DNA of 64,000 nucleotides from Desulfovibrio sp. ZJ369. Its GTDB lineage: Bacteria; Desulfobacterota; Desulfovibrionia; Desulfovibrionales; Desulfovibrionaceae. This document shows, piece by piece, positions 2,953 to 29,844 of this stretch. Position numbers and translations under genes: made by a program. The stretch spans positions 1-64,000 of the forward strand of contig NZ_JAAKEI010000011.1 in assembly GCF_011039085.1 (NCBI RefSeq), given 5' to 3'. A model generated the notes under the pieces. That model saw only the letters and a program-made list of their open reading frames with translations. It had not been told where the DNA came from and searched no databases. The first letter of the stretch is position 1, and every line of letters begins with the position of its first letter.

Positions 2953-4617
2953 ATGGGGATTTTGTTGCAAATCGTGATTATTGCACTGCTGGGGGTGCTG
3001 GCCGCCCTGCAGCCGGAAGGCGTCTGGGCCTGGATGATAACGGCGGCGGCCGCCGTCTGCGCGGGAGCCGACGCCTGGCTCTGGCTGAGGGCGGGGCAAA
3101 AAAGGGCCGACCTGCTTTCCTTTGCCCAAACATTGCTCGGATCCGATGCTCCGAGTTCTTCCGGGGAGCCCGCGCAACGTTTGCGTCACTGCCTGGAGGC
3201 ATTGCAGAACGAGCGCCGAAAAGCGCAGGAACAGGCCGCGGCCGCAGCCGAGAGGTTGCGCACTGAGGCGCAGGCTCTGCGGGCCGAGTCGCTTGCCGCG
3301 AGCGACCGTGAGAGGACCCTGGCGGACAAGATCTCGCAAAGCGCGCCGGTGCTGGAAAAAGCCCATAATGTCTGCAACAGGCTTTCCACGGAGGTGCGCC
3401 GCCTTTCCGAGCTGGTGGGCGATGTGGAGAAAGGCGTGGAGGTGCAGCGTGACCGCCTCGGCGAAACCAGCGCGGTCATGGAACGCGTGGCCGAAGCCGC
3501 GCGGGTTTCTTCGGATCGGGTGCGCGGCGTTACGGACAATGCGGAAGCCTCGCGCGGCAAAGCCGTCACCGGAGAAAAAGAAGTGCATGAGGCCGTGTCT
3601 TCCATTGAAGAGGTCAAAAGCACGGTCATGCACCTCAAGGAAGCTATGGCCGGGCTGGGAGAAAAAGCCAGCAACATCGGGCAGGTCATGAGCGTGATTA
3701 ACGAAGTGGCGGATCAGACCAATCTGCTGGCCCTGAATGCCGCCATTGAGGCGGCCCGCGCGGGCGATGCCGGGCGCGGTTTCGCGGTTGTGGCAGACGA
3801 AGTGCGCAAGCTGGCCGAAAAGACGATGGGGGCCACCAGGGAGGTTGAGGAAGCTGTTCTGGCCATTCAGGAAGAAACCCGCGTCAATGTGCAGACAGTG
3901 GAAAAAGCCGCCCTGCTGATTGTGGAAGGCGCGCAGCGCGCCTCCAGCGCCGGCTCCTTTATGGTCGATATCGTGCGGGACATGGAAGGGACGGCGGAGC
4001 ATCTGAAAATCATTGCCCAGGGCGCGGCCGAACAGTCGGAGAGCAACGCGCGGACCAACGGCGCGCTGGAGGAAATCCGGGATGTGGCCGAGCGCACGGC
4101 CTCCAATATGGAGACATTCACAGCGGCTCTGCTCTCGTTCAAGACCGGCATGGAAGATTTGGACATGATCGTCAATGCCCTGGTGACGGGGGACTACGCC
4201 CAGGCTTCCTCGGACAAGTTCGTGCAGTGGACGTCCAAGCTGGATTTGCATGTCCCGGTCATCGACAGGCAGCACAGAATGCTCTGCGGCTATATCAACG
4301 AGTTATACACGGCCATGCGCAACAACCGCACCGGCGAGGAGCTGCGGGCCATTGTGAAGAAGCTGCGTGATTATACGGCCTCGCATTTCAGCGAAGAAGA
4401 AAAACTTTTTGCGCCTTCAGCCTATCCCGGCACGGCAGAACACAAGGAAATCCACAGAAAATTCGTGGCCAGGCTGGATGAATTTGAAGAACAGCTCAAG
4501 AACGGCACGGCCACGGTGAGCATGGATCTGCTGAGCTTCCTCAAGGATTGGCTGATCAACCATATTGCGGGCACTGATCCCGGCTATGTGCCCTATCTGC
4601 CGGAGACGGCGCGCTAA
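2953..4617 (+). CDS. Methyl-accepting chemotaxis protein with C-terminal hemerythrin domain (DcrH-like)
   Basis: 554 residues. Two hydrophobic segments at residues about 3-45 form a minimal membrane anchor with almost no periplasmic domain. A coiled-coil signalling region follows, with the MCP hairpin tip around [37 protein letters not shown] in the middle of the protein. Residues about 420-545 are a bacteriohemerythrin domain: [21 protein letters not shown] and INHIAGTD supply the expected His, Glu and Asp ligands of a di-iron O2 site. D. vulgaris DcrH has the same design, so cytoplasmic oxygen sensing for aerotaxis is the likely role. A strong terminator follows the stop. Confidence 0.92.
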
Positions 4618-8147: not shown

Positions 8148-8376
8148 GTAGACTAAAACGTTCGGAACAGCGTAAAGACGCAGGCGGCAATACTGCCGAG
8201 ATGCAAACAAAAGTGCGCAGGCGCGGCGGGGCATGCTTGCCGCCCGCTTTGCTCTTCAGCCGCCCCTTGTGACGCGGCACTGTAACGACGATCCCCGTGC
8301 TCCTGCCGCATACTCGACCGGAGCCTGAAAATGAGGCGCATTTTTTCCGAAATCTTCTCACCCTTTGGAGGCTCAC

Positions 8377-9753
8377 ATGGCTCAGTCTTTTAATGCGGCT
8401 GAATTGATTGCCGATGATAAAAAATACGTCTGGCATCACCTCACCCAGCACAAAGTCTTTGAAAAAGCCGATCCCACCATCTTTGTGGAAGGCAAGGGCA
8501 TGCGGATCAAAGACATCCACGGCAAAGAATATCTGGATGCCGTCTCCGGCGGCGTCTGGACGGTCAACCTCGGCTACGGCAACGAAACCCTGGTCAAAGC
8601 CGTGAACGATCAGCTCATGCAGCTCTGCTATTTCGCCAACGGCTACGGCAACATCCCCACCATTAAGTTCTCCAAAAAACTGATTGAAAAAATGCCCGGC
8701 ATGAGCCGCGTGTATCTTTCCAACTCCGGTTCGGAAGCCAACGAAAAGGCCTTCAAGATCGTCCGCCAGATCTCCCAGCTCAAGCACGGCGGCAAAAAGT
8801 ACAAAATCGTCTACCGCAACCGTGACTATCACGGCACCACCATCACCACGCTGAGCGCCTGCGGCCAGGAAGAGCGCAAAAACCAGTATGGCCCCTTCAC
8901 TCCCGGCTTTGTGGAATTCCCGGCATGCTCGGTATACCGCTCGCCCTACCCCGAAGGCACGGCCAATCTGGGCGAAAAGTTCGCGCGCGAGCTTGAAACC
9001 GTAGTGCAGAAAGAAGATCCGGACACCGTGGGCGCGGTGATCGTGGAGCCGATCACTGCCGGCGGCGGGGTGATCGTGCCGCCTGACGGCTATTACGAAA
9101 CCCTCACCGAAATCTGCAAAAAGTACGGTCTGCTGCTGATCATCGACGAAGTGGTCTGCGGTCTGGGCAGAACCGGCAAATGGTTCGGCTACCAGCACTT
9201 CAACGTCAAGCCCGACATCGTGACCATGGCCAAGGGCGTGGCCGCGGGCTACGCGCCCATTTCCTGCACGGTCACCACCGAGGAAGTCTTCCAGGACTTC
9301 ATTGCCGATCCCGCGGATCGTGACAGCTACTTCCGCGACATCAGCACCTTCGGCGGCTGCACCGCGGGCCCTGCCGCCGGTTACGCCAACATCAACTACA
9401 TGGAAGAGCACAAGGTCCTCGATAATGTGGTCAAAATGGGCGACTACCTGATGGACGGCCTGAAGGCTCTGGAAAAGAAGTACGAAATCATCGGCGACGT
9501 GCGCGGCAAGGGCCTGTTCTGCGGGCTGGAGCTGGTCAAGAACCGCGCCACCAAGGAGCCCGTATCCGAAGCCGTGGCCGGTCAGGTTGTGGGCGAATGC
9601 ATGAAGCAGGGCGTGATCATCGGCAAGACCAGCCGCTGCTTCCGCGAACTGAACAACACCCTCTGCCTGGCCCCGGCGCTGATCGCCACCACGGCCGAGC
9701 TTGACGAAGTCCTGAAGGCTCTGGACAAGGCTTTTCAGGTCGTAAAGGCGTAA
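8377..9753 (+). CDS. tpa: Taurine:pyruvate aminotransferase
   Basis: 458-residue class III PLP aminotransferase that transfers the amino group of taurine to pyruvate, giving sulfoacetaldehyde and L-alanine. Visible: the PLP-phosphate motif SNSGSEANEKAF (about 111-122), YRNRDYHGTT (about 147-156), the Asp in LLIIDEVVCGLGRTG (about 250-264), and the Schiff-base Lys in VTMAKGVAAGYAPIS (about 285). Length and N-terminal motifs fit Bilophila-type Tpa; related omega-amino-acid aminotransferases remain an alternative, but the sulfonate-type ABC importer downstream supports taurine. GGAGG precedes the ATG at 8377; an in-frame TTG at 8365 overlaps that ribosome site and is less likely. Expression appears sigma-54 dependent. 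Confidence 0.88.
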   Translation: MAQSFNAAELIADDKKYVWHHLTQHKVFEKADPTIFVEGKGMRIKDIHGKEYLDAVSGGVWTVNLGYGNETLVKAVNDQLMQLCYFANGYGNIPTIKFSKKLIEKMPGMSRVYLSNSGSEANEKAFKIVRQISQLKHGGKKYKIVYRNRDYHGTTITTLSACGQEERKNQYGPFTPGFVEFPACSVYRSPYPEGTANLGEKFARELETVVQKEDPDTVGAVIVEPITAGGGVIVPPDGYYETLTEICKKYGLLLIIDEVVCGLGRTGKWFGYQHFNVKPDIVTMAKGVAAGYAPISCTVTTEEVFQDFIADPADRDSYFRDISTFGGCTAGPAAGYANINYMEEHKVLDNVVKMGDYLMDGLKALEKKYEIIGDVRGKGLFCGLELVKNRATKEPVSEAVAGQVVGECMKQGVIIGKTSRCFRELNNTLCLAPALIATTAELDEVLKALDKAFQVVKA

Positions 9754-11307: not shown

Positions 11308-11589
11308 TTGAGCACATTCATTCTTTTACTGGTCTTCATTGCTTCGCTGGTCATCGGCTACAAGGTACTCAGCCATATTCCAAGCCTGCTGCACACGCCG
11401 CTGATGTCCAGCATGAACGCGCTCGACGGGGTCATCATTCTCGGCGCCCTGACGGCCACCCATCTGGCCGGTTCCACCGTGGGCGTGTTCCTGGGCGCTT
11501 TCGGCATTGCACTGGCCGTGACCAACGTCTTCGGCGGTTTTGACATCACGCACAAGATGCTGAAAATGATCGCGGGCAAAAAGCGCTAG
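11308..11589 (+). CDS. pntAB: NAD(P) transhydrogenase subunit alpha 2 (PntAB), membrane part
   Basis: 93 residues, almost entirely three membrane helices (residues about 2-20, 38-58, 60-80), matching the small PntAB subunit that contributes helices to the proton-conducting domain II. The start is a TTG at 11308 with CGGAGG 9 nt upstream; no ATG in this frame keeps the first helix. Lies between pntAA and pntB in one operon. Confidence 0.93.
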   Translation: MSTFILLLVFIASLVIGYKVLSHIPSLLHTPLMSSMNALDGVIILGALTATHLAGSTVGVFLGAFGIALAVTNVFGGFDITHKMLKMIAGKKR

Positions 11590-11646: not shown

Positions 11647-14600
11647 ATGAGCACACTATACTACAATATCATTGCCGCGGTCCTCGCCCTTGCCATTCTT
11701 TACGGCCTGCACCTGATGAGCAACGTCCAGACGGCCGTGCGCGGCAACAAGCTGTGCGCCATATCCATGGCCCTTGCCATCCTCATCACCATGTACAGGG
11801 ACAGTTCGCTCGGCTCTCCGGCCCTTTGGGTGGCCATAGCGTTGGGCACGGCATTCGGACTGTTTTTGTCCAACAAGGTGAAGATGATCCAGATGCCGCA
11901 GCTGGTGGCCTTTCTGCACGGCTTCGGCGGCGGCGCGGCGGCCATCGTGGGCCTGATCATGCTTCTGGACGTGGGCACCGCCTCCGCATTCCACCGCATT
12001 GACGCCTGCCTGGCGCTCTGTTCGGGCATGACGACCATCGCGGGTTCCTTTGTGGCCGCGGGCAAACTGCATCAGCTCCTGCCGCAAAAACCCATTGTGC
12101 TGACCAATCACAGCAAGATCATCAACGTCATTCTGGGCGTGATGCTCGTCTCCCTGTGCATTTACAACATTGCACCGAATTTTCTCCCCTCGTTTTTCAT
12201 TTTCCTGATGTTCGCCACGGGCATTCTCTTCGGCATCGTCTTCACCATTCGCGTGGGCGGCGCGGACATGCCCATCACCATTTCGCTGCTCAACTCCATG
12301 GGCGGCATTTCCTGCGCCATTGCGGGCTTTGCCGTGGCCGACCCGCTGCTTATCGCCGTGGGCGGCATCATCGGCTCCGCCGGTCTGATGCTCACGCGCG
12401 TCATGTGCAAGGCCATGAACCGCACGCTGATGCCCATCCTGCTGGGTCAATCCTCCGTAACCGGCAAGCCCGCCGCTCCGGTCGCGGCCGCGCCCAAGAC
12501 ATCCGCGCCCAGGGCATCCGCGCCCAAGGCCGAAGCGGCCGCGCAATCCGCCGGGCAGAAAGACGCTGCCATCGCCCAACTGCTGACCACGGCCAAAAAC
12601 GTGATCATCGTGCCCGGTTATGGCATGGCTCTGGCCCAGGCCCAGCACAAGGTCAAGCAACTGGCCGACGCCCTGGAAGCCAGAGGCGCAAAGGTCGAAT
12701 ACGCCATTCATCCGGTGGCGGGCCGCATGCCCGGGCACATGAACGTGCTTCTGGCCGAAGCCAATGTCGATTATGAGCATTTGCTGGAAATGGACACCGT
12801 CAATCCCATGTTCCCGGACGCGGATCTGGTGATTGTGGTGGGCGCCAACGACGTGGTCAATCCGGCGGCCAATACGGCCGAGGGAACGCCCATTTACGGC
12901 ATGCCCATTCTGGAGGCGGACAAGGCCAAGGCCGTGATCATCTGCAATTATGACGAAAAGCCGGGTTACGCGGGCGTGCCCAATCCGCTGTACACCAAGC
13001 CCGGCGTCTTCATGCTGCTGGGCGACGCGGCCAAGACCGTGGCGACGCTGGCAGGCTATGCCGCCGGGCAGGCTCCGGCCGCCGGGGCGCAAACGAACGT
13101 CGCGCCCAATGCCGATGCCCAGGCCGCCCAACTGCTGACCACGGCCAAAAACGTGATCATTGTGCCCGGCTACGGCATGGCTCTGGCCCAGGCCCAGCAC
13201 AAGGTCAAGCAACTGGCCGACGCCCTGGAAGCCAGGGGCGCAAAGGTCGAATACGCCATTCATCCGGTGGCGGGCCGCATGCCCGGGCACATGAACGTGC
13301 TTCTGGCTGAAGCCAATGTCGATTATGAGCATCTGCTGGAAATGGACACCGTCAACCCCATGTTCCCGGACGCGGATCTGGTGATCGTGGTGGGCGCCAA
13401 CGACGTGGTCAATCCGGCGGCCAATACGGCCGAGGGAACGCCCATTTACGGCATGCCCATTCTGGAGGCGGACAAGGCCAAGGCCGTGATCATCTGCAAT
13501 TATGACGAAAAGCCGGGCTATGCGGGCGTGGACAATCCGCTGTACACCAAGCCCGGCGTGATCATGATGCTCGGCGACGCGGCCAGGACCGTGGACAATC
13601 TTGTCAAGCTGGCTTCCGGTTCCGCGCCCGTGGCTGCGGCCCAGGCGGACGTCGCGCCCGATGCCGATGCCCAGGCCGCCCGACTGCTGACCACGGCCAA
13701 AAACGTGATCATCGTACCCGGCTACGGCATGGCTCTGGCCCAGGCCCAGCACAAGGTCAAACAACTGGCCGACGCCCTGGAAGCCAGGGGCGCAAAGGTC
13801 GAATACGCCATTCATCCGGTGGCGGGCCGTATGCCCGGCCACATGAACGTGCTTCTGGCTGAAGCCAATGTAGAGTATGAGCATTTGCTGGAAATGGACA
13901 CCGTCAACCCCATGTTCCCGGACGCGGATCTGGTGATCGTGGTGGGCGCCAACGACGTGGTCAATCCGGCGGCCAATACGGCCGAGGGAACGCCCATTTA
14001 CGGCATGCCCATTCTGGAGGCGGACAAGGCCAGGGCCGTGATCATCTGCAATTATGACGAAAAGCCGGGCTACGCGGGCGTGGACAATCCCCTGTACACC
14101 AGGCCCGACGTGATCATGATGCTCGGCGACGCGGCCAAGACTGTGGACAATCTCGTCAAGCTGGCTTCCGGTTCCGCGCCCGTGGCTGCGTCCGAAGCGC
14201 CCAAAAAGGAAGCCGCGCAAGATGCCCTGCAGGCCCTGAAGACCGCCAAAAACGTGATCATCGTGCCCGGTTACGGCATGGCTCTGGCCCAGGCCCAGCA
14301 CAAGGTCAAACAACTGGCCGACGCCCTGGAAGCCAGAGGCGCAAAGGTCGAATACGCCATTCATCCGGTGGCGGGCCGCATGCCCGGGCACATGAACGTG
14401 CTTCTGGCTGAAGCCAATGTAGAGTATGAGCATCTGCTGGAAATGGACACCGTCAACCCCATGTTCCCGAACGCGGATCTGGTGATCGTGGTGGGCGCCA
14501 ACGACGTGGTCAATCCGGCGGCCAATACGGCCGAGGGAACGCCCATTTACGGCATGCCCATTCTGGAGGCGGACAAGGCCAAGGCCGTGATCATCTGCAA

Positions 14601-14721
14601 TTATGACGAAAAACCGGGTTACGCGGGCGTGGACAATCCCCTGTACACCAGGCCGGGCGTAACTCTGATGCTGGGCGACGCAAGCGCCTCCTTGGACAAA
14701 CTTCTGGCAATGGTGCGCTAA
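11647..14721 (+). CDS. pntB: NAD(P) transhydrogenase subunit beta with four tandem NADP(H)-binding domains
   Basis: 1024 residues against about 460 for a normal PntB. Residues 1-275 form the membrane domain II, with the conserved His in QMPQLVAFLHGFGG and Asn in MPITISLLNSMGG used in proton translocation. An Ala/Pro/Ser linker (about 276-308) leads to domain III, present four times in frame: the shared NVIIVPGYGMALAQAQ motif begins near residues 318, 502, 686 and 869. Each copy keeps the NADP fingerprint GYGMALAQAQ, HPVAGRMPGHMNVLLAEA, VVGANDVVNPAANT and YAGV-NPLYT. Copies are near-identical in DNA (period 549-552 bp) but are joined by different Ala/Pro-rich linkers. All four look competent to bind NADP(H). 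The subunit should sit in the inner membrane with PntAB and recruit PntAA. Confidence 0.95.
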   Translation: MSTLYYNIIAAVLALAILYGLHLMSNVQTAVRGNKLCAISMALAILITMYRDSSLGSPALWVAIALGTAFGLFLSNKVKMIQMPQLVAFLHGFGGGAAAIVGLIMLLDVGTASAFHRIDACLALCSGMTTIAGSFVAAGKLHQLLPQKPIVLTNHSKIINVILGVMLVSLCIYNIAPNFLPSFFIFLMFATGILFGIVFTIRVGGADMPITISLLNSMGGISCAIAGFAVADPLLIAVGGIIGSAGLMLTRVMCKAMNRTLMPILLGQSSVTGKPAAPVAAAPKTSAPRASAPKAEAAAQSAGQKDAAIAQLLTTAKNVIIVPGYGMALAQAQHKVKQLADALEARGAKVEYAIHPVAGRMPGHMNVLLAEANVDYEHLLEMDTVNPMFPDADLVIVVGANDVVNPAANTAEGTPIYGMPILEADKAKAVIICNYDEKPGYAGVPNPLYTKPGVFMLLGDAAKTVATLAGYAAGQAPAAGAQTNVAPNADAQAAQLLTTAKNVIIVPGYGMALAQAQHKVKQLADALEARGAKVEYAIHPVAGRMPGHMNVLLAEANVDYEHLLEMDTVNPMFPDADLVIVVGANDVVNPAANTAEGTPIYGMPILEADKAKAVIICNYDEKPGYAGVDNPLYTKPGVIMMLGDAARTVDNLVKLASGSAPVAAAQADVAPDADAQAARLLTTAKNVIIVPGYGMALAQAQHKVKQLADALEARGAKVEYAIHPVAGRMPGHMNVLLAEANVEYEHLLEMDTVNPMFPDADLVIVVGANDVVNPAANTAEGTPIYGMPILEADKARAVIICNYDEKPGYAGVDNPLYTRPDVIMMLGDAAKTVDNLVKLASGSAPVAASEAPKKEAAQDALQALKTAKNVIIVPGYGMALAQAQHKVKQLADALEARGAKVEYAIHPVAGRMPGHMNVLLAEANVEYEHLLEMDTVNPMFPNADLVIVVGANDVVNPAANTAEGTPIYGMPILEADKAKAVIICNYDEKPGYAGVDNPLYTRPGVTLMLGDASASLDKLLAMVR
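12574..14721 (+). repeat. Four tandem ~552-bp coding repeats inside pntB
   Basis: The same reading-frame position (GTGATCATY after GCCAAAAAC) recurs at 12601, 13153, 13705 and 14254, so the period is 552, 552 and 549 bp. Cores of about 165 codons are nearly identical; differences cluster in the linkers (for example around 13070-13130, 13610-13680 and 14165-14240). Confidence 0.95.
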
Positions 14722-15082: not shown

Positions 15083-15838
15083 GTGCCCTGTCAGGATGAA
15101 GCTGACGTCAAAATCCGGGTGAATAATCTCACCAAGCGTTTTGGCGATCTCACCGTTCTTGATGGCATCAATTTCACCATCAAAAATGGAGAGCTGCTGG
15201 CCATCGTCGGCCCCACCGGTTGCGGCAAGACTACATTTTTGAACTGCCTTTCCAAACTCATGCCCGCCACTGAAGGCGATATTCTTATCGACGGGCAGGA
15301 AGCCAACCCCAAAAAACACAATATCGCCTATGTCTTTCAGGAGCCCACCTGCCTGCCCTGGCGCACGGTGCGCGAAAACGTGGCCTACGGCATGGAGGTC
15401 AAAGGCGTCGGCAAAGAGGAACGCTTCCAGCGCGCCTCGGACATTATGGACCTTGTGGGCCTTTCCTCCTGCGCCGATCTTTACCCCAATCAGGTTTCAG
15501 CCAGCATGATGCAGCGCATCGCGGTTTCCCGCGCCTTTGCGGTGAACCCCGACCTCTTGCTGATGGACGAGCCTTACGGCCAGTTGGACGTGAAGCTGCG
15601 CTTCTACCTTGAAGACGAACTGGTCAACCTCTGGCAAAAGCTGAACAGCACCATTCTCTTTGTCACCCACAACATTGAGGAGGCTGTCTATGTGGCCGAG
15701 CGCATCCTTGTGCTGACCAACAAGCCCACCAAGGTCAAGGCGGAAATCCAAGTGGATCTGCCCCGCCCCCGCAAACTCATCGACCCCAGATTTGTGGAAC
15801 TGCGCAGGCAGGTCACGGAGCTTATCCGCTGGTGGTAG
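15083..15838 (+). CDS. NitT/TauT-family ABC importer ATPase 1 (degenerate signature motif)
   Basis: 251-residue ABC ATPase of the SsuB/TauB/NrtD type. Walker A GPTGCGKT (43-50), Q-loop VFQEPTCLPW (84-93), Walker B LLLMDEP (158-164) and the switch His in FVTHNIEEA (His196) are intact. The ABC signature, normally LSGGQ/M, reads VSASM (138-142). GTG start at 15083 with AAGGAG 6 nt upstream. First gene of a run of six same-strand genes with short gaps. The motif pattern is complementary to that of the second ATPase at 17657, so the two probably form a heterodimer in which this protein's Walker/His side builds the active site. Confidence 0.9.
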   Translation: MPCQDEADVKIRVNNLTKRFGDLTVLDGINFTIKNGELLAIVGPTGCGKTTFLNCLSKLMPATEGDILIDGQEANPKKHNIAYVFQEPTCLPWRTVRENVAYGMEVKGVGKEERFQRASDIMDLVGLSSCADLYPNQVSASMMQRIAVSRAFAVNPDLLLMDEPYGQLDVKLRFYLEDELVNLWQKLNSTILFVTHNIEEAVYVAERILVLTNKPTKVKAEIQVDLPRPRKLIDPRFVELRRQVTELIRWW

Positions 15839-15880
15839 GCTTTGGCCCGCCCCCGCAAACGCAGCCGCCCGGAGGATGTT

Positions 15881-16675
15881 ATGGCTTACCAAACTGTTGT
15901 GGTCAAAGAACCGCCGCTGCTTCGAGCGCTTCCCTATATCAGCGTCATTGCTTTCTTTCTGATTTGGGAAACCGCAGTGCGCTCGGGCATGATTCCCCAG
16001 ACCCTGCTGGCCTCCCCGACGCAGGTCTTCCATGCTTTTATCGACAAGCTGACCAACCCCAATCCCGACGGGGCCGTGATGCTGACCCACTTCAAAACCA
16101 GCCTGACCGAAGCTTTCATCGGCTATGTGCTGGCGCTGCTGGTGGGTCTGCCCCTGGGGCTGGCCATGGGCTGGTTTAAAGTGGCCGAGGGCCTCTTCCG
16201 GCCTATTTTCGAGCTGATCCGGCCCATCCCGCCCATTGCCTGGATTCCGCTGACCGTGTTCTGGTTCGGCATCGGGCTGACAGGCAAGGTCTTTATCATC
16301 TGGATCGCGGGCATTGTGCCCTGCGTGATCAACGCCTATGTGGGCGTGCGCATGACCAATCCGGTTTTGATCCAGATGGCCAGGACCTACGGAGCCAACG
16401 ACTGGCAGATATTCACCCAGCTTTGCATCCCGTCCTCCCTGCCCATGGTTTTCGGCGCGCTGCAACTTGCTCTGGCCTACTGCTGGACCAACCTGGTGGG
16501 CGCCGAGCTGCTGGCCGCCGATTCCGGCCTGGGCTTTCTGATCACCATGGGCGGCCGTGTGGCCCGGCCTGATCTGATCGTGCTCGGCATGATCTGCGTG
16601 GGCATTTCGGGCGCGATCATCGGGATCATCATCGACTATGTCGAAAAACGACTGCTGGCGGGCATCAGGAGGTAA
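15881..16675 (+). CDS. NitT/TauT-family ABC importer permease 1
   Basis: 264 residues, about six membrane helices, with the SsuC/TauC-type blocks FELIRPIPPIAWIPLTVFWFGIG and the EAA-loop region MARTYGANDWQIFTQLCIPSSLPMVFGALQ that couples to the ATPase. The ATG at 15881 has GGAGG 5 nt upstream; an in-frame TTG at 15842 lacks a site. Its partner is the distinct permease encoded 3 nt downstream, so the channel is likely heterodimeric. Probable cargo: an alkanesulfonate such as taurine, judged by family and proximity to tpa. Confidence 0.9.
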   Translation: MAYQTVVVKEPPLLRALPYISVIAFFLIWETAVRSGMIPQTLLASPTQVFHAFIDKLTNPNPDGAVMLTHFKTSLTEAFIGYVLALLVGLPLGLAMGWFKVAEGLFRPIFELIRPIPPIAWIPLTVFWFGIGLTGKVFIIWIAGIVPCVINAYVGVRMTNPVLIQMARTYGANDWQIFTQLCIPSSLPMVFGALQLALAYCWTNLVGAELLAADSGLGFLITMGGRVARPDLIVLGMICVGISGAIIGIIIDYVEKRLLAGIRR

Positions 16676-16678
16676 TTC

Positions 16679-17527
16679 ATGAGCGGTTCTTCATCCATTG
16701 CCAACGAAACCGTTGACCACGCCGCAGAACGCGGACGGTTTACGTTCTACAAACTGATCACCAATACCTACTTTTTGTACGCCGTCTCGATTCTCGGCTT
16801 TTTCTGGCTCTGGCACTGGACGGCGGCCGAAAAGATCTTCCGGGACTCCCTGGCCACGCCCAAGGAAGTGCTGGACATGATGATCCGCCTGACCAGCATG
16901 AATTTCGCGGGCAGCAATCTCTGGGGCCACATCTGGGCCAGCTTCCAGCGCGTGCTCATCGGCTTTGTGCTGGCGAGCATCGTGGCCGTGCCCCTGGGCC
17001 TGTTCATGGCCCTGAACAAAACCGTGAACAGCATCGTCAAGCCGCTTTTCGACCTGTTCAAGCCCATGCCGCCCATCGCCTGGGTGTCCATTGCCATTCT
17101 CTGGTTCGGCATCGGCGAGTTTTCCAAGGTGTTCATCATCATCATCGGCACGTTCGTGCCCTGCCTGTTGAACGCCTACAACGGCGTGCGCCTGGTGGAT
17201 CCGGACCTGTACGACGTCATCCGGGTGCTGGGCGGCACGCGCAAGGACGAGATCTTCCATGTCTGCTTTCCGGCCTCCTTTCCGGCGGTCTTCGCGGGCC
17301 TGCAGATTTCGCTCAGCGCGGCCTGGACCTGCGTGCTCGCCGCCGAGCTGATGAACTCCCGCGACGGCCTGGGCTTTTTGATCAAGCGCGGCATGGACAC
17401 GCACCAGCCGTCCCTGGTTCTCAGCGGCATGCTGCTGATTGCGGCCGCGGCTTGGATAAGCTCCCTGGGCGTGGGCTTGCTGGAGCGCAAGCTCTGCCCC
17501 TGGAAGCGCAGCATTGACAATGTCTGA
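16679..17527 (+). CDS. NitT/TauT-family ABC importer permease 2
   Basis: 282 residues with an N-terminal cytoplasmic stretch and about six membrane helices. Diagnostic blocks: LFDLFKPMPPIAWVSIAILWFGIGEFSKVFII and the coupling loop VIRVLGGTRKDEIFHVCFPASFPAVFAGLQISLSAAWTCVLAAEL. AGGAGG precedes the ATG. It differs clearly from permease 1, which argues against simple duplication and for a heteromeric transporter. Confidence 0.9.
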   Translation: MSGSSSIANETVDHAAERGRFTFYKLITNTYFLYAVSILGFFWLWHWTAAEKIFRDSLATPKEVLDMMIRLTSMNFAGSNLWGHIWASFQRVLIGFVLASIVAVPLGLFMALNKTVNSIVKPLFDLFKPMPPIAWVSIAILWFGIGEFSKVFIIIIGTFVPCLLNAYNGVRLVDPDLYDVIRVLGGTRKDEIFHVCFPASFPAVFAGLQISLSAAWTCVLAAELMNSRDGLGFLIKRGMDTHQPSLVLSGMLLIAAAAWISSLGVGLLERKLCPWKRSIDNV

Positions 17528-17656: not shown

Positions 17657-18442
17657 ATGAGCGAGCAGAACGACAAGTGTGCGCCCACGCTGAAAATCCA
17701 CTGTGAGGACATCAGCAAGACCTTCATTCAGAAGGGCAATCAGGAAGTGCCGGTGATCAGGGACATCACCCTGGATGTTTACGAAAACGAATTCCTGGTC
17801 GTCCTGGGTCCGGGCCAGAGCGGCAAATCCACGCTGCTGAAGATTATTGCCGGGCTGGAAATTCCGGACAAGGGCTATGTGACCCTGGACGGCGAGCCCG
17901 TGACCGGCCCCGGGCCGGATCGCGGCATCGTGTTTCAGAGCTACATGCTCTTTGCCTGGAAAACCGTGCGCGATAACGTGGAACTGGGCCTCAGACTGCG
18001 CGATGTGCCCGCGGCCGAACGGCACAACATCGCCGACCACTACATCAAGATGGTGGGCCTGCAAGGCTTTGAGAATCATTACCCCCACCAGCTCTCCGGC
18101 GGCATGAAACAGCGCGTGGGCATTGCCCGGGCCTATGCCAACTCGCCCAAGGTCATGCTCTTGGACGAGCCCTTCGGCCAGCTGGACGCCCAGACCCGCA
18201 TGTACATGCAGGTGGAGACGGCCCGGATCTGGGAACAGGACAAACGCACCGTGCTCTTTGTCACCAACAATATCGACGAAGCGCTGTACCTGGGCGATCG
18301 CATTGTGCTGATGGAAGGCAAACTGCCGGGCACCATCAAGACCGAATACCCCATCAACCTGCCGCGGCCGCGCGAGCATACCTCCATGGAGCTTTTGGAA
18401 CTGCGCGAGGAAATCATCGCCAATACGGAGCTGATTCTCTGA
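17657..18442 (+). CDS. NitT/TauT-family ABC importer ATPase 2 (His-switch replaced by Asn)
   Basis: 261-residue ABC ATPase of the TauB/SsuB type. Walker A GPGQSGKST (51-59), Q-loop VFQSYMLFAW (92-101), signature LSGGM (146-150) and Walker B VMLLDEP (166-172) are intact. The switch-loop His is Asn204, in FVTNNIDEA, where the usual sequence is THD/THN. The defect lies on the opposite face from that of ATPase 1, so both fall into the same composite nucleotide site of a heterodimer. 129 nt separate it from permease 2. Confidence 0.9.
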   Translation: MSEQNDKCAPTLKIHCEDISKTFIQKGNQEVPVIRDITLDVYENEFLVVLGPGQSGKSTLLKIIAGLEIPDKGYVTLDGEPVTGPGPDRGIVFQSYMLFAWKTVRDNVELGLRLRDVPAAERHNIADHYIKMVGLQGFENHYPHQLSGGMKQRVGIARAYANSPKVMLLDEPFGQLDAQTRMYMQVETARIWEQDKRTVLFVTNNIDEALYLGDRIVLMEGKLPGTIKTEYPINLPRPREHTSMELLELREEIIANTELIL

Positions 18443-18443
18443 T

Positions 18444-18914
18444 ATGGCTGCGGGCACGCTGATCTTCAGCCTGCTGGCCGGGGGCCTGGGCGCGATCCTG
18501 GTCTGGTGGGCGGCGCGCGCCGTCTGTGCGCGTTTTGCCGCCGGGGTCGCCCTTCGCGGCAATGCGGAAGGCAACGGGCGGCCGCAAGAGGCTGCGGCCT
18601 TGGACAGCGGGCAGATCAGCACGGAAGAGATCAAGGCCGTCTACCGCCGGGTCTTTTGGCGACGCGTGGGCGGCATGCTGCTCTGCCTGGCGGCTTTTGG
18701 GGCATGGCTCATGGGCGCGCACTGGCTGACGAGCCTGCTGCTCGCGGGCATGGGCTGCCTGCTGCAATATCTTGCATACCGCTTGCGCACCTGCTATGCT
18801 TTGCGTATAGCTCAGCAAAAGCAAGAACAGGAGATGACGGCCATGAGCGGCGTCGCAACAGCCGGACCGCCCAGGGCTTCAATGGAAAAGAAACACCGCT
18901 GCCCGGTGTTGTAG
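18444..18914 (+). CDS. Small membrane protein of the ABC importer operon, unknown function
   Basis: 156 residues, not recognised. One hydrophobic segment at residues about 4-24, a soluble Gln/Glu-containing stretch with STEEIKAVYRRVFWRR (about 58-73), then two hydrophobic segments (about 75-112), and a short charged tail. The ATG lies one base after the stop of ATPase 2, so translation is coupled. Position between the transporter core and its binding protein suggests an accessory or regulatory subunit, but nothing in the sequence identifies a function. Confidence 0.75.
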   Translation: MAAGTLIFSLLAGGLGAILVWWAARAVCARFAAGVALRGNAEGNGRPQEAAALDSGQISTEEIKAVYRRVFWRRVGGMLLCLAAFGAWLMGAHWLTSLLLAGMGCLLQYLAYRLRTCYALRIAQQKQEQEMTAMSGVATAGPPRASMEKKHRCPVL

Positions 18915-19055
18915 AAGCGTATGGGGAAAGACGGCTCCCTGGAGCTGCCGACAGTTTGCGTCGAGGGTTACAGCCGTTGCCGTGGACGGCCCGCGTCCGG
19001 GCTTTTACGGAGTGCGAACGGACCCGGACTTAACGTGTTATTCAGGAGGATATGT

Positions 19056-20135
19056 ATGTTGAAAAAATGGATTTCTCTGGCGCTGACCGCCGTCTTTGTG
19101 CTGAGCATCGCGGGCATGGCCATGGCCGCGGACAAGCTGGTCAAAGTGCCCACTGCCTGGATGGACGAGCATGAGACCTTTCTGATGTGGTATGCCAAGG
19201 AAAAAGGCTGGGACAAAGAAGCCGGCCTGGACGTTGAAATCAAATACTTCAACTCCGGCGCGGACATTCTGAACGCCCTGCCCTCCGGCGAATGGGTGTA
19301 TGCGGGCATGGGCGCGGTTCCGGCCATGCTGGGCAATCTGCGCTACGACACCATTGTCATTGCCAACGGCAATGACGAATCCATGACCAATGGCGTGGTA
19401 GTGCGCAAGGACAGCCCCATTGCCAAGGTCAAGGGCTGGAACAAAGACTATCCCGACGTGCTGGGCAGCCCCGAAACCGTGAAGGGCAAAACCTTCCTGG
19501 TCACCACCGTGAGCTCGGCCCACTATGCGCTTTCCTCCTGGCTTAACGTCCTGGGCCTCAAGGACAGCGACGTGGTGATCAAGAACATGGATCAGGCCCA
19601 GGCCGTGGGCGCCTTTGAAAACAAGATCGGCGACGGCGTGGCCCTCTGGGCGCCGCACCTCTTCTTGGTTATGGACAAGGGCGGCGTGCTTGCCGCGGAT
19701 CTCAAGATGTGCAAAAAGGGCAACCCCATCGTCTTGATTGCCGATGCCAAGTATGCCAATTCTCATCCTGAAATCACCGCCAAATTCCTGGGCATCTATC
19801 TGCGCGCCGTGAACATGCTCCAGAAGGAGAGCGCGGAAAGCCTGGTGCCCGAATACCGCCGCTTCTTCCTGGAATGGGCCGGCAAGGATTATGACAAGAA
19901 GCTGGCGCTCAAGGACATCCAGAAGCATCCCGTGTACAACCTGGACGAGCAGCTGGTGATGTTCGACGACTCCAAGGGCCAGAGCCAGGCCCAGGAGTGG
20001 CAGGGCGAAATCGCCGACTTCTTTACAACCGTGGGTCGCATCACTCCTGCGGAAGCCAAGAAGGTCCAGGACGGCAAGTATGCCACCAACAAGTTCCTGA
20101 AGATGGTCAAGACCCCGATCCCGGCTTACAAGTAA
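19056..20135 (+). CDS. NitT/TauT-family ABC importer substrate-binding protein
   Basis: 359 residues with a clear signal peptide (MLKKWISLALTAVFVLSIAG, cleavage after AMA, residue about 24). The mature protein is SsuA/TauA-like: VPTAWMDEHETFLMWYAKEKGWDKEAGLDVEIKYF, GADILNALPSGEWVYAGMGAVPAM, and GKTFLVTTVSSAHYALSSWL. The start at 19056 is favoured by AGGAGGAT and by the signal peptide; the frame is open further upstream without either. It closes the operon and is followed by a strong terminator. The ligand is probably an organosulfonate or a related small anion; taurine is inferred from context. Confidence 0.9.
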   Translation: MLKKWISLALTAVFVLSIAGMAMAADKLVKVPTAWMDEHETFLMWYAKEKGWDKEAGLDVEIKYFNSGADILNALPSGEWVYAGMGAVPAMLGNLRYDTIVIANGNDESMTNGVVVRKDSPIAKVKGWNKDYPDVLGSPETVKGKTFLVTTVSSAHYALSSWLNVLGLKDSDVVIKNMDQAQAVGAFENKIGDGVALWAPHLFLVMDKGGVLAADLKMCKKGNPIVLIADAKYANSHPEITAKFLGIYLRAVNMLQKESAESLVPEYRRFFLEWAGKDYDKKLALKDIQKHPVYNLDEQLVMFDDSKGQSQAQEWQGEIADFFTTVGRITPAEAKKVQDGKYATNKFLKMVKTPIPAYK

Positions 20136-28692: not shown

Positions 28693-29844
28693 ATGTTTTC
28701 GAGTTTCCAAACCGTTGAGCGGGTGGTGTACGGCCGGGGCGTCGCGGCGAAACTGGGCGACGAGGTTCTGCGCCTGGGCTGCCGCAGCGTCGCCGTGATC
28801 ACGGACAAGGGCCTGGTGAACGCAGGCATCCACACGCCGCTGCTCGAATCCCTCAAAAACGCGGGCGTGGACGCTCTGCTCTATGACAAGGCGGAGCTGG
28901 ATCCCACGCCGGAATCCATTGAAAAGGCCGCGGCCTGGGTCAAGGCGAACAAGGTCGATCTGCTGGTGGGCCTGGGCGGCGGCAGCTCCCTGGACAGCAC
29001 CAAGGCCACGGCCCTGCTGGCCGTGCATGAGGGCCCCATGAGCCGGTACTTCGGCCTGCATAAAGTGCCCTCGGCCTGCATGCCCACCATCCTGATTCCC
29101 ACCACCGCGGGCACGGGCAGCGAAATGACCTCCAATGCGGTGCTCAATGATCCGATCACCAACTCCAAGCAGGGCACGGTCAGCGATTATCTCTACGCCA
29201 GGGTGGTCCTTCTGGATCCGGAACTGACCGTGGGCCTGCCGCCCTTTTACACGGCCATCACCGGTCTGGACGCCCTGGTGCACTGCATTGAGTCCTATGT
29301 GAGTCTGCATGCCACGCCCTTCACGGATGCCCTGAATCTTCAGGCCATGCGCATGATCTCGGACAACATCCGCAGGGTCTACGCCAACGGCGGCAATATG
29401 GAAGCGCGCGAGCAGATGCTCTACGGCGCGGCCATCAGCGGCATGGGCTTTTCCAACACTCAGAACGGGATCATTCACGCCCTGGGCATGTCCGTGCCCT
29501 CGGAGCATCATATCCCTCATGGCCTGATGATGGCGGTCTGCGCGCCCATGGGCATGACCTTCAACGCCCTGGCCGCGCCGGAGAAGTTCGCGGTCATTGC
29601 GGAAATCCTGGGCAGCGCGCCTGCCGGAGCCTCCACGCGCGAAAAGGCCAAGAGCGCCGCCGCGGGCTTTGTCAGCCTGATGGATGACCTGGACATCAAG
29701 CAGGGCCTGTCCAATTACGGCATCCGCCGCGAGGAGCTGCGCACCGTGGCCGAGCTGGGCGCGGCCTACAAGCGGCTGATGGACAGCAATCCGCGCAAGG
29801 GCACGGCCGACGTGCTCGAAAAGCTTTTGGAACAGTTTTATTGA
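28693..29844 (+). CDS. Iron-containing (group III) alcohol dehydrogenase 2
   Basis: 383 residues. Fe-ADH motifs: GLGGGSSLDSTKATALL (nucleotide-binding), IPTTAGTGSEMTSNAVL, and metal-ligand blocks ITGLDALVHCIESYVS, GIIHALGMSVPSEHHIPHGLMMAV. Only moderately like the first Fe-ADH of the window, so not a recent duplicate. AGGAGGAG precedes the ATG at 28693; an upstream in-frame ATG is weaker. With the aldehyde dehydrogenase 118 nt downstream it probably oxidises the TRAP-imported substrate to an aldehyde. The reverse reaction (for example reduction of sulfoacetaldehyde) cannot be excluded. Confidence 0.88.
   Translation: MFSSFQTVERVVYGRGVAAKLGDEVLRLGCRSVAVITDKGLVNAGIHTPLLESLKNAGVDALLYDKAELDPTPESIEKAAAWVKANKVDLLVGLGGGSSLDSTKATALLAVHEGPMSRYFGLHKVPSACMPTILIPTTAGTGSEMTSNAVLNDPITNSKQGTVSDYLYARVVLLDPELTVGLPPFYTAITGLDALVHCIESYVSLHATPFTDALNLQAMRMISDNIRRVYANGGNMEAREQMLYGAAISGMGFSNTQNGIIHALGMSVPSEHHIPHGLMMAVCAPMGMTFNALAAPEKFAVIAEILGSAPAGASTREKAKSAAAGFVSLMDDLDIKQGLSNYGIRREELRTVAELGAAYKRLMDSNPRKGTADVLEKLLEQFY

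Follow-up and report, generated by a model that had tools for sequence, protein, structure and literature searches.

A transhydrogenase-like operon with four tandem dIII domains in Desulfovibrio sp. ZJ369, a candidate proton-coupled alanine dehydrogenase

The pnt locus and its repeated dIII domain

The window, a stretch of 64,000 nucleotides from Desulfovibrio sp. ZJ369 (contig NZ_JAAKEI010000011.1), contains pntAA-, pntAB- and pntB-like genes in this order, which is the three-gene layout of bacterial transhydrogenases, with an aminotransferase gene upstream and two sets of ABC transporter genes downstream (Table 1). The domains dI, dII and dIII of the proton-translocating NAD(P) transhydrogenase are all present. 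The membrane domain dII has kept the equivalents of E. coli H91, S139, D213, N222, G252 and R265, and the NCBIfam equivalog PRK09444 was matched at 907 bits, above its cut-off.

Table 1. Features of the pnt locus and its surroundings in the window.
Feature	Position	Strand	Basis or remark
Class-III aminotransferase, putative taurine:pyruvate aminotransferase-like (tpa)	8365..9753	+	
pntAA-like dI, 389 aa	10045..11214	+	AlaDH residues, RQD docking loop
pntAB-like membrane subunit (PNTB_4TM)	11308..11589	+	
pntB-like gene, dII and four dIII	11647..14721	+	Pfam, repeats, AlphaFold
dII membrane/proton-channel domain	11668..12460	+	Pfam PNTB; channel residues
dIII copy 1	12560..13050	+	N-Y-D at 12946-12954
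dIII copy 2	13081..13608	+	N-Y-D at 13498-13506
dIII copy 3	13648..14160	+	N-Y-D at 14050-14058
dIII copy 4	14194..14709	+	N-Y-D at 14599-14607
ABC ATPase and two permeases, taurine/sulfonate-like	15083..17527	+	
Second ABC ATPase and NMT1-like substrate-binding protein	17657..20135	+	

The pntB-like gene is one uninterrupted frame of 1,024 amino acids with an ATG start, and contains four direct repeats at spacings of 552, 552 and 549 nt. Pfam PNTB gave four matches in this gene, one to the full dII and dIII and three to dIII alone. Thus, the first-pass annotation was correct in describing four tandem in-frame dIII copies behind the membrane domain, and the dIII motifs that it listed are present and undamaged in all four; the fourfold repeat is far above chance. 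The dIII cores are 88–96% identical in amino acid sequence and 90–97% identical in DNA sequence, copy 4 being the most divergent and clustering with the final copies in relatives. The AlphaFold model of the product (thin alignment, mean pLDDT 70.8) displayed nine membrane helices followed by four folded dIII domains, which are separated by linkers with a pLDDT below 50. These linkers are 22–32 aa long, with Ala and Pro mostly making up 35–59% of the residues in the Desulfovibrionaceae, which agrees with the flexible Ala/Pro-rich linkers noted before. The linker between dII and dIII in known transhydrogenases is 14–19 aa (PMC5742237).

The likeness to the swinging lipoyl arms of pyruvate dehydrogenase E2, also drawn in the first-pass annotation, stands as an analogy only. 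Both systems have several near-identical carrier domains that are repeated in tandem, are joined by flexible linkers rich in Ala and Pro, and would serve common active sites. However, the two are not homologous, the dIII carrier is a Rossmann domain with a nucleotide instead of lipoate, and it is coupled to a membrane domain.

Occurrence and divergence of the dIII copies

A pntB gene was found in 16 of the 61 genomes of the same genus, and all that were read at full length have three or four dIII copies, which bears out the expectation that the copy number varies. Three of these genomes are single contigs, with four copies in G055 and with one four-copy and one three-copy gene each in G020 and G245. 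Two further genera of the Desulfovibrionaceae have at least three dIII copies (three in G068; the other is a Mailhella MAG), and four are present in a Riflebacteria MAG. A canonical pntB with one dIII occurs in other genera of the Desulfovibrionaceae. The clade defined by these genes consists of multi-dIII forms in the Desulfovibrionaceae and Riflebacteria, and of single-dIII forms in the Clostridia and another family of the Desulfobacterota; a related single-dIII form is also present in one Desulfovibrionaceae MAG. The occurrence of three to four copies in several species and in single-contig genomes rules out a duplication introduced by assembly, and indirectly answers the question of whether long reads would reveal a single dIII.

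Differences at four-fold degenerate sites among the dIII copies of the window amount to 0.07–0.14, as compared to 0.22–0.34 at the same positions between the window and its nearest four-copy relatives. The copies have thus been homogenized within the gene, and the last copy retains its own lineage. In the Riflebacteria gene, the copies differ at 0.29–0.55 of the four-fold sites, yet are 92–97.5% identical in amino acid sequence, which shows that each copy is under purifying selection and has been kept functional. The earlier proposal of a recent amplification is therefore correct only in part, as the copies of the window are homogenized but the multi-dIII architecture is old and conserved. A recent one-off expansion is likewise ruled out by the presence of the architecture in three genera and by the many silent and few amino acid changes among the Riflebacteria copies.

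Each of the complete genomes G020 and G245 has two multi-dIII operons (loci L098, L099, L100 and L101). The four-copy gene is located near an alanine racemase gene in G020. The three-copy gene adjoins tpa and xsc and is without the distinct last copy. Between the two paralogues, copies 1–3 are 99–100% identical. Elsewhere, the multi-dIII gene of L014 (genome G017) and of the matching record NZ_RQYH01000004.1 (L040) is frameshifted within the first dIII, which may reflect either a true lesion or an error in sequencing. One pattern hit, L166, was discarded as a 60-aa frame arising by chance.

Residue changes in dIII and dI, and the gene neighborhood

In E. coli, loops D and E of dIII set the preference for NADP over NAD, and the KRS motif corresponds to K424-R425-S426 (PMC9529548). 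In the window, N-Y-D replaces K-R-S in every copy (Table 1), a change that the first-pass annotation overlooked. The motif was N-[Y/F]-D in 62 of 62 dIII domains of the clade (K424N, R425Y/F, S426D) and K-R-S/G in all eight canonical domains, which is a small comparison set. Another change, of N428 to lysine, was also present in all 62 clade domains. The clade-defining changes cluster in loop D (positions 401, 403 and 404) and in the first part of loop E (positions 423–428), with no change to Arg350, Asp392, Tyr431 or the glycine-rich loop. The natural reading of these sequence changes is that dIII in the clade would now bind NAD(H) in place of NADP(H). The previous description of the copies as NADP(H) binders in an ordinary transhydrogenase is opposed by the loss of KRS in every copy, and also by the alanine dehydrogenase (AlaDH) pocket of dI and by operons with alanine-producing or -importing genes.

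The dI protein of the window has R20, K80, H107 and D303 at the positions of R15, K75, H96 and D270, which are essential in AlaDH (PMC10401832, PMC4691113). Canonical PntA is without three of these four residues. All four were present in every complete clade dI that was read, with a single exception of H96 to Q. Clade dI also has the motifs KVKEP (the second lysine of which is K75), FLHPAA, IDQGG and NIPG of alanine dehydrogenases (Ald) from the same genus, where E. coli PntA has KVNAP, FIWPAQ, AQNGG and DLPG. A blind column scan of dI, in which the canonical set was small (6 dI domains), identified 11 conserved columns that are common to clade dI and AlaDH and different in canonical PntA, including K75, H96, S134, D270 and Q271. 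The reverse pattern was found in none of the dI columns.

Clade dI thus resembles Ald (TIGR00518) in R15, K75, H96, M133, S134, D270 and Q271, and in occupying the place of ald beside tpa. It differs from Ald in its mean identity of only 33% (27% for canonical PntA), in a TIGR00518 score for the window dI of 136.8 bits, below the cut-off of 391.85, and in the attached membrane proton channel and dIII. Furthermore, the RQD loop that docks dIII was present in 17 of 17 clade dI sequences, whereas Ald is without it. Clade dI was placed between Ald and canonical PntA in an unrooted tree, on the PntAA side; the RQD loop and this placement rule out that dI is a true Ald misannotated as PntAA. The tree position is as would be expected of an intermediate, with rooting and monophyly unsettled. 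The residues shared with Ald could also represent ancestral retention, from which an equally one-sided pattern would result, yet this leaves unexplained why the kept columns are the catalytic ones.

The closest known systems are PntAB and NNT of E. coli, Thermus thermophilus, Rhodospirillum rubrum and mitochondria, in which dI, dII and dIII are homologous to those of the clade. The channel residues, the RQD loop and the nicotinamide-side motifs of dIII are intact as in these enzymes, and the three-gene layout is that of R. rubrum. Unlike them, the clade has three or four dIII domains instead of one, N-[YF]-D for KRS, AlaDH catalytic residues in dI and alanine-related operons.

The aminotransferase is read as Tpa based on its linkage and family, and its substrate is putative. 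In the known taurine pathway, which consists of Tpa, Ald and Xsc, the pyruvate used by Tpa is regenerated by Ald in Taurinivorans and Bilophila (PMC10507020, PMC8667426). Within the genus sample of 61 genomes, some of which are incomplete, ald and pnt were each identified in 16 genomes with no overlap (hypergeometric P=0.003, ignoring shared ancestry). The tpa gene was identified in 22 of the 61, of which 10 have ald, 12 have pnt, none has both and none has neither (Fisher P=3e-9, ignoring shared ancestry). It adjoins pnt in 12 of 12 genomes with pnt and tpa, and is close to ald in 10 of 10 with ald. Several of the ten tpa and ald clusters also contain a SarD-like gene and an ABC transporter of the type found at 15083..17527 in the window; in relatives, tpa adjoins SarD (699 bits) and ald. 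Xsc was present in all 13 genomes with pnt and tpa that were examined, in one as a fragment, and in both G020 and G245 its gene lies close to pnt and tpa. In G245, the pnt, tpa and ABC genes and an extra ORF form a row with xsc among them. In three genomes (G016, G058 and G020), the four-copy operon is located downstream of an alanine racemase gene, with an amino-acid permease gene in between in G016 and G058.

Two other genes of the window were observed around this cluster. An iron-containing alcohol dehydrogenase at 28693-29841 resembles the sulfoacetaldehyde reductase SarD but scored 517 bits, below the cut-off of 700, which suggests that the sulfoacetaldehyde route in this genome is more likely that of Xsc. 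The other gene, at 2953-4617, lies a few kilobases ahead of the taurine-type cluster and encodes a methyl-accepting chemotaxis protein that carries a hemerythrin domain at its C-terminus.

A candidate proton-coupled alanine dehydrogenase

Judging from residues and gene linkage, we consider it probable that pntAA-pntAB-pntB encode a membrane-bound, proton-coupled alanine dehydrogenase on a transhydrogenase frame, although its substrate, cofactor, coupling, direction and the role of the copy number are all putative. The AlaDH-like dI would oxidize L-alanine with NAD+, yielding pyruvate, NH4+ and NADH, with one tethered, NAD+-loaded dIII docking at dI and accepting the hydride. The loaded dIII would then swing to dII, where the release of NADH would be coupled with proton movement. 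Either the proton gradient would pull the unfavorable oxidation of alanine, or the reverse direction would conserve energy. With NAD+ as the acceptor, the oxidation of alanine costs a few tens of kJ/mol, so that a link to the proton gradient would be sensible. The three or four dIII arms would serve one dI/dII pair, so that loading, hydride transfer and release could overlap. A dI dimer binds only one dIII tightly (PMC5742237), suggesting that the extra arms would queue while slow nucleotide exchange proceeds in parallel. In the window, the complex would replenish the pyruvate used by the taurine aminotransferase and substitute for the absent soluble Ald.

The main weakness of this proposal is that NAD(H) on both dI and dIII would amount to a proton leak if dI exchanges its nucleotide freely, as canonical dI does with NAD(H). 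Coupling would then need a gated or tightly held nucleotide on dI, which is hypothetical. Also counted against the proton-coupled reading are the TIGR00518 score of dI below the cut-off and its place on the PntAA side of the tree, the presence of ald in addition to the pnt complex in G068, a member of another genus with three dIII copies, and an ald fragment in G121. The leak would be removed if dIII binds NADP(H) despite the lost motif. The same machine would then generate NADPH from alanine as a proton-driven alanine:NADP+ oxidoreductase, a reading that retains the evidence from dI, gene context and coupling and has a thermodynamic answer to the leak. Yet, with KRS lost and an acid at position 426 in all copies, we hold this to be very unlikely.

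The same substitutions weigh against an ordinary proton-translocating transhydrogenase that binds NADP(H) on each dIII via other residues, with the extra copies serving only to raise throughput or NADP(H) capacity. Such an enzyme is suggested by the homology along the whole genes, the undamaged dII and RQD residues and the PRK09444 match, and the lysine at position 428 in every clade domain could in principle contact the phosphate. However, it gives no reason for the conserved AlaDH catalytic residues in dI and leaves the linkage to tpa or alr and the replacement of ald unexplained, and we regard it as unlikely. Similarly improbable is a dI that acts as a plain alanine dehydrogenase and delivers NADH to the cytosol, with the membrane part and dIII as an uncoupled scaffold, an NADH reservoir or a regulatory remnant. 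The dI, operon and replacement evidence is the same for this reading, which escapes the difficulty that dI and dIII would both bind NAD(H), but it does not agree with the retention of channel residues, RQD loop and nicotinamide-side dIII motifs across phyla, or with the strong purifying selection on each Riflebacteria copy.

If the proton-coupled alanine dehydrogenase is real, NAD+-dependent, uphill oxidation of alanine would have a direct link to the proton gradient, and we know of no example of an ion-coupled dehydrogenase of this type. The chances are about even that the clade represents an undescribed energy converter, in which NAD(H)-loaded dIII arms of a proton-coupled amino-acid dehydrogenase have been multiplied three- to fourfold. 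Among open-licence papers, we found nothing on point for multi-dIII transhydrogenases, which is weak evidence of novelty, or for transhydrogenase and alanine dehydrogenase with taurine in Desulfovibrio. In Desulfovibrio that use taurine, the complex would also fill the place of the "missing alanine dehydrogenase"; these are relatives of bacteria that produce H2S from host taurine, and the source of the window is a gut-type Desulfovibrio. A form intermediate between alanine dehydrogenase and the NADP(H) transhydrogenase may have persisted in the clade. A proton-coupled complex of this kind would also serve as a natural experiment on the swinging of dIII and on the evolution of a proton pump from alanine dehydrogenase. 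Regardless of the cofactor, enzymes with three or four dIII domains are a ready tool for studying the swinging-domain mechanism.

Among the clostridial members, one MAG (G279; loci L047 and L105) contains a canonical KRS transhydrogenase as well as one of the NYD type; among the clade members read, this NYD-type enzyme alone has H96 replaced by Q and N222 by V. In five clostridial loci (L177, L178, L179, L181 and L044, checked with Pfam in L044 only), pntAA is immediately preceded by a gene for an Lrp/AsnC-type regulator.
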